Assembly (NCBI GenBank): GCA_030619715.1
Contig: JAUXAW010000006.1
Span: forward strand, 1 to 37,823
DNA: 37,823 nt
From: a candidate division WWE3 bacterium
Lineage (GTDB): Bacteria > Patescibacteriota > WWE3 > JAUXAW01
Direction: 5' to 3'
Made by a program: the position numbers and the translations under genes. The notes below the pieces were generated by a model. That model was not told the DNA's origin. It searched no databases and worked only from the letters and a program-made list of their open reading frames with translations. Of this stretch, positions 23,380-26,655 are shown piece after piece (the stretch's first letter is position 1; each line of letters opens with the position of its first letter).

Positions 23380-23616
23380 TTACTGCGCTGGCCCTCTTTG
23401 GCGGCCATGGCGTATCCGCACCCCAGCGGTGGGCCACGCTCGCAACCAGGCTGAACACCCACCATTGACCCCACGCGGTTTCTGGCGAGGGTGGGTGGCT
23501 GCTGGACGCGGGCGGACGATCACCGGCTCCTCCACCCTAGGCTTCTCAGCGCGCTGGAAAAACCGATCCCATAACCGCCGCAGGAAACTACGTACCTGAT
23601 CGAAAAACTCTCGCAT
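23380..23616 (-). CDS. Hypothetical protein (78 aa)
   Basis: RBS aaaggagagaaagaccaATG; own consensus-like promoter at 23680-23708 and terminator. Confidence 0.65.
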   Translation of the reverse strand: MREFFDQVRSFLRRLWDRFFQRAEKPRVEEPVIVRPRPAATHPRQKPRGVNGGCSAWLRAWPTAGVRIRHGRQRGPAQ

Positions 23617-23679
23617 TGGTCTTTCTCTCCTTTCGCTATGAATGATTGACCCGCCGATCTTCCGGATTTGCGTAGTCTA

Positions 23680-23708
23680 TTTATACCACAAACCAACCCT
23701 CCTGTCAA
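23680..23708 (-). promoter_or_regulatory. Promoter TTGACA-17-TATAAA with extended -10 TGG
   Basis: tgtcaa 23703-23708; tttata 23680-23685. Confidence 0.78.
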
Positions 23709-23724
23709 GTGCTAGAGGACAGAC

Positions 23725-23753
23725 TTGACACGGTTTTAAAATTGTGTTATTTT
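23725..23753 (+). promoter_or_regulatory. Promoter TTGACA-17-TATTTT with extended -10 TGT, driving the T-box leader
   Basis: ttgaca 23725-23730; tatttt 23748-23753. Confidence 0.7.
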
Positions 23754-23759
23754 ATAGTC

Positions 23760-24090
23760 ACAATTTAACCAAAGGCGCTAATTATCAAGGAATAGTAGGT
23801 TGGGAGGTGGGTTGCTAGCGAGTCAACGACGGTGGAAGGTTGACAACCACGAGCAAGCCGAACACGCCTTGAGACCCTAAGAGAAAATCGAAGGGGCGCT
23901 GCTCGGGGGAAATACCGAGACGGTAAGTTCGGCCGTAATAAATGGACACCCGGTGTCGTAAAAACGGAGCCGGGATTGAGTGGTCAGACTGAGCAATCGG
24001 TTTGGCAACAAGGATGGGACCGCGGAGGTTCAAAAAGGCCTTCGTTCCTTTATCACGAAAGTGGTAGGTGAACGAGGGCTTTTTGCGTTT
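23760..24090 (+). promoter_or_regulatory. T-box riboswitch (leader RNA), predicted histidine specificity
   Basis: Stem I base TCAAGG(23785-23790)/CCTTGA(23867-23872); AATAGTA loop-E side; GTGGGTTG/CAACCAC; AG-bulge-like GCGAG; TCAAC-gacGGTGGAAG-GTTGA distal loop; specifier GAA-CAC (23863-23865); T-box AAGGATGGGACCGCGG (24010-24025) with antiterminator AAGGA/TCCTT + 7-nt bulge UGGGACC + GCGGAGG/CCTTCGT; competing terminator GCCTTCGTTC/GAACGAGGGC + TTTTT. Confidence 0.9.
24038..24084 (+). terminator. T-box conditional intrinsic terminator
   Basis: GCCTTCGTTC(24038-24047)/GAACGAGGGC(24070-24079), inner TATCAC-GAAA-GTGGTA, then TTTTT. Confidence 0.88.
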
Positions 24091-24122
24091 AGCCCTCAAA
24101 ATACAAAGAAAGGAGGTTGAGG

Positions 24123-24317
24123 ATGAGCTTAGAACAGGTGGTGGAAATCAGAGGTAGGCTGTGGCAGATTCTGGCAGATCTCAGATCCCTGGCGAAAGAC
24201 AACAAAGCCAGCAATAAGGCCCCATTCAGTAACGAGCGTCTAGCCGACGCAATCGGCATCATCAAAGACGAGCTGGGATGCCACGTAAAACCACCGGGGC
24301 CGCTGAGCCCCCACTAG
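24123..24317 (+). CDS. Hypothetical small protein (64 aa), first ORF behind the T-box
   Basis: RBS aaaggaggttgagg-ATGAGC; MSLEQVVEIRGRLWQILADLRSLAKDNKASNKAPFSNERLADAIGIIKDELGCHVKPPGPLSPH. Confidence 0.65.
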   Translation: MSLEQVVEIRGRLWQILADLRSLAKDNKASNKAPFSNERLADAIGIIKDELGCHVKPPGPLSPH

Positions 24318-24335
24318 ACAAAGAAGGGGAGGGGA

Positions 24336-24398
24336 ACGAGGGGTAGGAGAGGAAGTCTAAAGCTTGCACTAAAGGGCTTCCTCCCTACTCCCCCATCA
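24336..24398 (+). terminator. Long purine/pyrimidine hairpin after the 64-aa ORF
   Basis: gaggggtaggagaggaag ... cttcctccctactccccc imperfect long stem; only a weak T-run after it. Confidence 0.4.
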
Positions 24399-24455
24399 CA
24401 TTTTAGATAATTGAAGAACAAGAATCAAAAGTGTTAGGATGAAGGAGGATTAATT

Positions 24456-25724
24456 ATGAATAAAAAAATTAAGCCACAAACACTTAAAGGCTTCCGAGAT
24501 TTTTTGCCGGATGAGATGAGAATCCGGAATTTTGTGTTGGGAGTTTGCAAAGAAGTTTTTGAATCTTTTGGGTTTGAGCCGTTGGAGACACCGTCGCTGG
24601 AATACGCTTCAACCTTGCTGGGAAAATACGGCGAGGAAGCCGACCGTTTGGTTTACACCTTCAAAGACCGCGGCGACCGCGAGGTTGGTTTAATTTATGA
24701 CCTGACTGTCCCCGTCAGCCGCGTCCTAGCCACCTACCGCGACGAGATTTCGCTGCCTTTTAAGCGCTACCAAATCCAGCGCGTCTGGCGAGCGGAAAAA
24801 CCGCAAAAAGGCCGCTTTCGCGAATTTGTTCAGTGTGATTTTGATATTTTTGGGGTTGCTTCTCCTCTAGCCGACGCCGAAATTATTGCCGTGATTTATC
24901 AGGTCCTCAAAAAATTAGGTTTTGATGACTTCAAAATTCGTATCAATTCCCGTCCCCTCCTCTTTTCTATCCTAGAGGAAGTAGGAATAACGGAAAAAAA
25001 TCAGCAGCTTGAAGTCTTGCGTATCGTCGACAAACTCGATAAACTGCCAGAGGAAAAGCTTATCGAAGACTTGCAAAAAAAGAATTTATCTTATTCGACA
25101 TGCGATCGCTTGCTAAACATGATAAAGCAAACTGTCCCAGATGAAAATACTGAGAGGATACTGAGTTACCTCCAGGCAATGGGCCTAGAGGAGAAATACT
25201 ATTGTTTTGATCCTACTCTTGTCCGCGGTTTAGACTATTACACCGGCCCGATTTTCGAGGCGGTCGTCGGAGATTCCAAGAATAGTGTTGCCGGCGGTGG
25301 AAGATATGACAACCTGATCAAGCAGATGGGTGGACCAAATGTTCCCGCCACCGGCTGCTCCCTCGGCCTCGACCGCATCTGTGAAATTCTTTCAGAGCGA
25401 GGCTCTGCAAATAAGCTCAACCAAGCCGAAACGCAGGTCCTCGTTACCATCTTCGACGAATCACTAGTTGATGAGTCTTTGAAACTTACTACCATGCTGC
25501 AGAGTATGGATGTTTTTACCGAAATCTATCTTGACCCCTCCGCCAAACTCGACAAACAGCTCAAGTATGCCGATCGGAAAGGAATACCCTATGTCGTTAT
25601 CCTTGGACCGGATGAGATCAAAAGTAATAAAGTGACGATCAAAGATTTAAGAACTGGTGAGCAGGAGATGGTCGGACGTAAAGATTTAGTAAATTTTCAA
25701 TTCTCAAATCCCAATTTTCAATGA
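24456..25724 (+). CDS. hisS: Histidyl-tRNA synthetase
   Basis: KGFRDFLPDEM; DLTVPVSRVLA; RVWRAEKPQKGRFREFVQCDFDIFG; VRGLDYYTGPIFE; GGRYDNLI. Confidence 0.96.
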   Translation: MNKKIKPQTLKGFRDFLPDEMRIRNFVLGVCKEVFESFGFEPLETPSLEYASTLLGKYGEEADRLVYTFKDRGDREVGLIYDLTVPVSRVLATYRDEISLPFKRYQIQRVWRAEKPQKGRFREFVQCDFDIFGVASPLADAEIIAVIYQVLKKLGFDDFKIRINSRPLLFSILEEVGITEKNQQLEVLRIVDKLDKLPEEKLIEDLQKKNLSYSTCDRLLNMIKQTVPDENTERILSYLQAMGLEEKYYCFDPTLVRGLDYYTGPIFEAVVGDSKNSVAGGGRYDNLIKQMGGPNVPATGCSLGLDRICEILSERGSANKLNQAETQVLVTIFDESLVDESLKLTTMLQSMDVFTEIYLDPSAKLDKQLKYADRKGIPYVVILGPDEIKSNKVTIKDLRTGEQEMVGRKDLVNFQFSNPNFQ

Positions 25725-25746
25725 ATTTTCAATGATCAAATTTTCA
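25691..25746. repeat. AATTTTCAATTT-type degenerate repeat, locus 1 (encodes the hisS C-terminus and stop)
   Basis: aaattttcaattctcaaatcccaattttcaatgaattttcaatgatcaaattttc; hisS ends NFQFSNPNFQ*. Confidence 0.75.
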
Positions 25747-26655
25747 AACACCGCTATCATTGCTATTCTCGCAGTGACAGCAATATGGGGACTAGCTGGG
25801 CCGGTCATTGTTTGGACACTTCAACACATTCCCCCATTTACTTTCTTGTTTTTAAGATTTCTAATTGCTTCAGTTGTCATCTTGCCCTTTGCTTTGAAAG
25901 CAAAATTTTGGCGGGAAATTAACCGGCAGAACCTGCCGACGCTTCTTGGCCTTTCGCTTTTGAGCACGACCGTCGGACTTGGGCTCCTTTTTTACGGCTA
26001 CCAGTTCACCACCGCCCTCGACGGCTCGTTAATCGCCCTGCTCGCCCCCCTTTTAATCATCGCCGGCGGCGCTTTTTTCTTAAAAGAAGAAATTACCACC
26101 CTCGAAAAAATCGGACTCCTGGTCGCTTTTGCCGGCAGTATCGTCACCCTCATCCAGCCGCTACTTGAAAAAGGAATCGCCGGAGAAAAAGCGGCCCTGG
26201 GAAACTTCCTTATTCTTTTGTACCATATCTCCTGGGCGACCTATGCTCTTTGGAATAAAAGAATTGGTAAGAAGTTTAGTACACTGACAATGACGGCGGT
26301 ACCGATTTTTATCTCTGTTCCAATCTTTGCGCTGCTTGCTGGCTTCGAAAACCAAAATTTTCAATTTTCAATTTTCAATGTTCAATCAATTTTCAATTCC
26401 CAATTTACAAGTGCTCTGCCAGGAATTCTCTATATGTCATTGCTATCCTACATCGTCGCCTACTACCTCTATGAGTGGTCAGTTAGACGAATCGAGGTTT
26501 CCGAAGCCGCTCTCTTCGGCTACCTCCAACCCATCTTCGCCTTCCCCGCCGCCTACCTTTTGCTCGGTGAAGTTCCAACGCGCTACTTCCTCCTTGGTGC
26601 GAGTTTAATTGGGATCGGGGTGTTTCTGACGGAGTGTAGAAAGAAGCACCAATGA
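25732..26655 (+). CDS. EamA/DMT-superfamily transporter
   Basis: 307 aa, about 10 TM helices, two EamA-like halves; repeat-derived linker NQNFQFSIFNVQSIFNSQF. Confidence 0.85.
   Translation: MIKFSNTAIIAILAVTAIWGLAGPVIVWTLQHIPPFTFLFLRFLIASVVILPFALKAKFWREINRQNLPTLLGLSLLSTTVGLGLLFYGYQFTTALDGSLIALLAPLLIIAGGAFFLKEEITTLEKIGLLVAFAGSIVTLIQPLLEKGIAGEKAALGNFLILLYHISWATYALWNKRIGKKFSTLTMTAVPIFISVPIFALLAGFENQNFQFSIFNVQSIFNSQFTSALPGILYMSLLSYIVAYYLYEWSVRRIEVSEAALFGYLQPIFAFPAAYLLLGEVPTRYFLLGASLIGIGVFLTECRKKHQ
26351..26410. repeat. AATTTTCAATTT-type repeat, locus 2, inside the EamA CDS
   Basis: accaaaattttcaattttcaattttcaatgttcaatcaattttcaattcccaattt. Confidence 0.8.

Follow-up and report, generated by a model that had tools for sequence, protein, structure and literature searches.

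The locus described here raises the question of how the histidine--tRNA ligase gene, hisS, is controlled in a member of the Patescibacteria, and whether the leader upstream of it is a T-box riboswitch answering to tRNA-His. The window is positions 1 to 37,823 of contig JAUXAW010000006.1 (forward strand) from assembly GCA_030619715.1 of a candidate division WWE3 bacterium. A T-box would provide a sequence-readable regulatory mechanism for a bacterial group whose gene regulation is little known. Earlier reports of T-boxes come mainly from Firmicutes, Actinobacteria, Chloroflexi and a few others; the 2008 survey (PMC2494555) lists these three together with Deinococcus/Thermus and two Proteobacteria, and the phylum of the present host is absent from that list.

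Leader and operon

The initial annotation had described a promoter, Stem I with loop-E, AG bulge and specifier, a UGGGACC bulge and a terminator in front of a 64-aa ORF and hisS, and all of these landmarks are present in the sequence:

23725..23753, + strand: sigma-70-type promoter TTGACA-17-TATTTT (consensus scan, 10/12 matches; a consensus match only, with an imperfect -10 hexamer)
23779..24052, + strand: T-box leader, histidine class (RF00230 covariance match, 66.2 bits)
23785..23872, + strand: Stem I, with base TCAAGG/CCTTGA, loop-E AGTA, AG bulge and distal loop (sequence and Rfam alignment)
23863..23865, + strand: specifier codon CAC (His), invariant in seven His leaders and placed by the rule of PMC7778990
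23875..23936, + strand: Stem II with the AAGAGAAAA S-turn strand, and the ACGG/CCGT linker hairpin (sequence and alignment)
23917..23977, + strand: linker hairpin and Stem IIA/B (CCCGG/CCGGG, GTGTCG...CGGAGC; model R1)
23980..24008, + strand: Stem III region (minimum free energy fold; boundaries approximate)
24010..24050, + strand: antiterminator AAGGA [TGGGACC] GCGGAGG ... CCTTCGT TCCTT (sequence; -10.3 kcal/mol as drawn)
24015..24021, + strand: T-box bulge UGGGACC, its UGGG complementary to the CCCA 3' end of tRNA-His
24032..24084, + strand: intrinsic terminator sharing its 5' arm with the antiterminator (-30.0 kcal/mol)
24123..24317, + strand: 64-aa ORF with AAAGGAGG ahead (open frame, good ribosome-binding site)
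24456..25724, + strand: hisS, histidine--tRNA ligase (TIGR00442, 414.8 bits; cut-off 286.75)
25732..26655, + strand: EamA-family transporter gene (PF00892, 144.4 bits)

In the specifier strand, GAA-CAC-G, the CAC codon lies immediately after GAA, and the loop is closed by the G that follows it. The leader shares with canonical T-boxes a long Stem I with loop-E, AG bulge and distal loop, a specifier in an internal loop, Stem II with its S-turn, Stem IIA/B, Stem III, an antiterminator with a 7-nt UGGNACC bulge, an overlapping terminator and an aminoacyl-tRNA synthetase gene downstream. It differs from them in scoring lower than the curated family and in having G as the bulge N, matching C73.

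Comparison with the Rfam T-box model, which the initial annotation had proposed, gave a significant match over the full length of RF00230 (model positions 1-219 of 219 at 23779-24052; E 2.6e-14 for the stretch, and 9.6e-15 when the whole host genome was searched). The score falls short of the gathering score of 93, a curation threshold rather than a biological feature, and for this reason routine Rfam annotation misses the element: the default scan of the window at the gathering threshold returned a tRNA-Leu and no T-box. Since a match above 93 was found in just 13 of the 129 Patescibacteria genomes with a match, the shortfall is read as a bias of the RF00230 model and not as failed membership.

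The CCTTCGTTCCTT strand belongs to both the antiterminator and the terminator, so the two hairpins are mutually exclusive; the overlap claimed at the outset is thus confirmed, with -10.3 against -30.0 kcal/mol, the terminator having a z of -7.2 versus dinucleotide shuffles. Translational T-boxes do exist, mostly in Actinobacteria (PMC7583486), and the leader could then act by sequestering the ribosome-binding site of the 64-aa ORF. However, the terminator is a 15-bp stem followed by TTTTT, which ends 24 bases before that site (24108-24116) and leaves it outside, and a translational mode is scarcely credible here. The window element is, judging from its sequence, very probably a transcription-attenuating histidine T-box riboswitch controlling an operon of the 64-aa ORF, hisS and the EamA gene in Patescibacteria. 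By analogy with known T-boxes, the GUG anticodon of tRNA-His would pair with the CAC specifier. If the tRNA were uncharged, its 3' CCCA end would pair with UGGG, the antiterminator would hold the strand CCUUCGUUCCUU and hisS would be transcribed; if it were charged, the terminator would form. A shortage of histidine would raise the output of the synthetase and probably that of a histidine importer, in cells for which a dependence on amino acid uptake is expected.

The transporter gene begins 8 bases past the hisS stop, and the hisS-EamA pair also stands behind His leaders in two other genomes, in the order tRNA-His, M20 peptidase, hisS, EamA in G275 and tRNA-His, hisS, EamA in G026. Because the gene shares the His regulon with hisS, a role in histidine uptake is predicted for it, from the regulon only, the inferred substrate being histidine or a source of it. 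The 66-aa frame containing the 64-aa ORF gave no Pfam or NCBIfam match, and no homologue of the ORF was found in the compared loci. A strong hairpin (GAGGGGTAGGAGAGGAAG.../CTTCCTCCCTACTCCCC) lies between this ORF and hisS, at window 24340-24396, with no T-run after it.

Histidine specificity and related leaders

A single tRNA-His(GTG) was found in the host genome (ARAGORN, tRNA loci; 42 distinct tRNA sequences), encoded with G-1 and C73. The CAC in Stem I is cognate to the hisS downstream, identified by TIGR00442, and UGGG is complementary to the CCCA end of the sole tRNA-His found, so that the agreement of CAC, UGGG and hisS put forward in the initial annotation is upheld. The discriminator, C73, fits the bulge G as predicted there. 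The further claim that the bulge G pairs with C73 is supported with a qualification: UGGG and CAC do coincide, but pairing of N with C73 is not the usual criterion for His T-boxes, as C73 can pair with G-1 in mature tRNA-His (PMC7778990). The specifier and UGGN rules of TBDB class the window element as His, as here, whereas the discriminator is unused there for His T-boxes (PMC7778990). UGGG can pair only once the acceptor has opened, given that mature tRNA-His normally has a G-1:C73 pair, and the leaders of relatives bear on how a T-box reads tRNA-His in spite of this.

Among 131 T-boxes found with Rfam and having a readable bulge, N was U in 78, C in 31, A in 18 and G in 4; all four UGGG bulges belong to CAC leaders, the window leader among them. 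Reading by eye added eight CAC leaders with UGGG (G012, G337, G214, G251, G275, G307, G223 and PFL108, the last a named Microgenomates). Each of the 12 UGGG bulges read is thus in a CAC leader, although CAC/UGGG leaders were among the sequences used to build models R1 and R2, and those leaders are not all mutually independent.

The positions of hisS and of T-boxes were compared across 48 genomes of the class, and the sequences were then read. Six other genomes have His leaders: those of G004, G010, G012 and G034 are linked to hisS and all carry UGGGACC, and those of G026 and G042 precede tRNA-His. All seven His leaders, window included, have an identical AACAC within the GAACAC strand, so that the expected conservation was borne out for CAC (7/7) and, in the hisS-linked leaders of the class, for UGGGACC (5/5). 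Model R1, made from the linker hairpin and Stem IIA/B with the window sequence left out, recovered the window leader (36.6 bits, E 6.5e-9); at E up to 0.1 no other match was listed for the host genome. The hisS locus of G001, from the same order, gave neither an Rfam T-box match nor an R1 match. An R1 match upstream of hisS in G003 (L085, E 0.003) was dropped, as no specifier hairpin or bulge was seen on reading.

The host assembly (674 kb, 91.8 percent complete) is in 36 contigs, and this one might be a contaminant from a Firmicute or Chloroflexi genome, in which a T-box would be no surprise. Such an origin is highly improbable: the contamination estimate is 0.35 percent, the window HisS is nearest among named organisms to Candidatus Shapirobacteria (54 percent) and other Patescibacteria (51 and 51 percent), with 53 percent to G001, and homologous His leaders occur in the six other genomes of the class. 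In the closest hisS loci from named organisms (L134-L136 and others), scanning with Rfam gave tRNA-His ahead of hisS and no T-box, and this led to the finding of a reduced leader in L135. In L134:520-681, from Candidatus Shapirobacteria, the intact tRNA-His, 2.3 kb before hisS, is immediately preceded by a broken partial copy of itself.

The identified targets of His leaders elsewhere (hisS, tRNA-His, hisG, hisD and hutH) are all histidine-related, hisG and hisD being found behind them in G214, G251 and PFL108. In one case (L344, G337 C15) a histidine ammonia-lyase gene follows the His T-box, together with a gene resembling threonine synthase; as the lyase would break histidine down, it is unexpected under a switch that responds to starvation.

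T-boxes were found in 129 of 384 sampled Patescibacteria genomes and in 24 of the 48 genomes of the class (Rfam model, E up to 0.001). A T-box in a CPR-like genome had been called notable in the initial annotation; the host does belong to the Patescibacteria, but the element is not exceptional there. Its presence in a third of the sampled genomes bears on the age of the mechanism. The open-licence papers searched contained none on T-boxes in candidate phyla, which is weak evidence of novelty. In one genome two T-boxes stand in tandem on the same strand (L259, G223 C3:25376-25700).

Leaders with a minimal specifier hairpin or lacking the bulge

Stem I is replaced in eight His leaders (L135, G337, G214, G251, G275, G307, G223 and PFL108) by a small hairpin whose loop, mostly GUCACG, contains CAC, and the Trp leader of the host has AAUGGG in the loop of such a minimal specifier hairpin. 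All of these His leaders except L135 have UGGGACC, most with a clear terminator after it. Actinobacteria have translational T-boxes with an ultrashort Stem I (PMC7583486), and some Patescibacteria His, Trp and Tyr leaders, including the host Trp leader, resemble them in their small specifier-loop hairpin. Unlike those, the short Patescibacteria leaders are followed by intrinsic terminators and therefore look transcriptional; the window element differs from the ultrashort type in its long Stem I. According to a review (PMC7583486), transcriptional T-boxes cannot do without the distal Stem I motif, whereas translational ones can, and the apparently transcriptional leaders with minimal hairpins would, if functional, be an exception to this rule. 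An automatic count over all T-boxes gave minimal specifier hairpins in 45 of 104, against a mean of 33 and a maximum of 43 in shuffles; as this is too close to chance, they are claimed solely for leaders aligned by hand or with a model.

Four His leaders (in G026, G042, L135 and G109) keep specifier and terminator and have no UGGNACC bulge. They are located at L096:557-853, L128:744-1007, L135:1440-1668 and L383; three precede tRNA-His, and L383 (G109) directly precedes hisS. They may sense the amount of tRNA-His, or something else, or be decaying. No description of T-boxes with a minimal hairpin or lacking the bulge was found in the open-licence papers searched, and these relatives bear on whether transcriptional T-boxes work with a minimal Stem I or without a bulge.

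The loss of the bulge in these four leaders means that decay or change does occur in the lineage. The window leader could itself be a decayed T-box, its anatomy still recognisable and its response to tRNA lost, with hisS expressed from a promoter further down, and its score under the Rfam cut-off would fit such a history. However, all positions known to matter are intact, including the exclusive hairpins and the rare bulge G, and a consensus scan of 23500-24600 gave no plus-strand promoter besides the one at 23725. Decay of the window leader is thus very unlikely, and a working histidine T-box is much the better explanation.

T-boxes ahead of cognate tRNA genes

The interest of the window T-box lies in its setting, a predicted Patescibacteria T-box regulon with tRNA genes among its targets. 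In 8 of the 154 T-boxes examined, the T-box match is followed after 42 to 61 nt by the start of a tRNA gene in the same orientation, the terminator lying in between, and all eight tRNA genes are cognate to their T-box. They are Trp in the host genome (C13), His in G026 and G042, Tyr in G204 (Candidatus Beckwithbacteria, CP011210.1) and G337, and Arg in G208, G270 and G278. By our own estimate, from about 45 tRNA genes per 0.85 Mb, fewer than one same-strand tRNA neighbour within 200 nt, and about 0.04 cognate ones, would be expected by chance among the 154. Further cases are His in G214, G275, PFL108 and L135 (the reduced leader), Trp in G283 and Tyr in the genome of L135, giving 14 leaders (His, Tyr, Trp, Arg) that precede a cognate tRNA gene. 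About 20 Chloroflexi T-boxes examined had no tRNA gene downstream, against the 8 of 154 in Patescibacteria, a comparison that does not prove restriction to Patescibacteria.

The host Trp T-box (G000 C13:25379-25712; L131, L002) has UGG in its minimal specifier hairpin and a UGGC bulge, and is followed by tRNA-Trp, a 291-aa ORF without a Pfam match, and trpS. A second, divergent tRNA-Trp of the host lies free in a tRNA cluster on C14. Similarly, a second tRNA-His was found elsewhere in G275, G214, PFL108 and the genome of L135; in G026 and G042 the T-box-linked tRNA-His is the only one found. In G283 the tRNA-Trp behind the Trp T-box is ahead of trpS, and in the genome of L135 the tRNA-Tyr behind the Tyr T-box is ahead of tyrS. 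Tyr T-boxes stand directly before tRNA-Tyr in L280 (CP011210.1:374153-374353, minus strand), L227 and L349, in the last with an ORF and tyrS following.

These arrangements suggest, with fair probability, that Patescibacteria T-boxes also control the gene of the tRNA that they sense. Uncharged tRNA-Trp, -His, -Tyr or -Arg would turn on its own gene, which in several cases would be an extra copy, inducible by starvation, in addition to one that stands free. The host would do so for Trp, and the window His T-box would be of the same leader family, in which some members lack the bulge that senses aminoacylation. The window element adds to a known kind, and the tRNA-gene targets look like a new variant of T-box use; no description of such targets was found in the open-licence papers searched.

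In most cases the stretch from the T-run to the tRNA is too short for a separate promoter. The three Arg T-boxes (L235, L224 and L226, in G208, G270 and G278) have an AGA specifier and are followed by three different tRNA-Arg (TCT, GCG and TCG). Here a TATAAT-like stretch is present between the T-run and the tRNAs, and it is possible that these three tRNA clusters have a promoter of their own.
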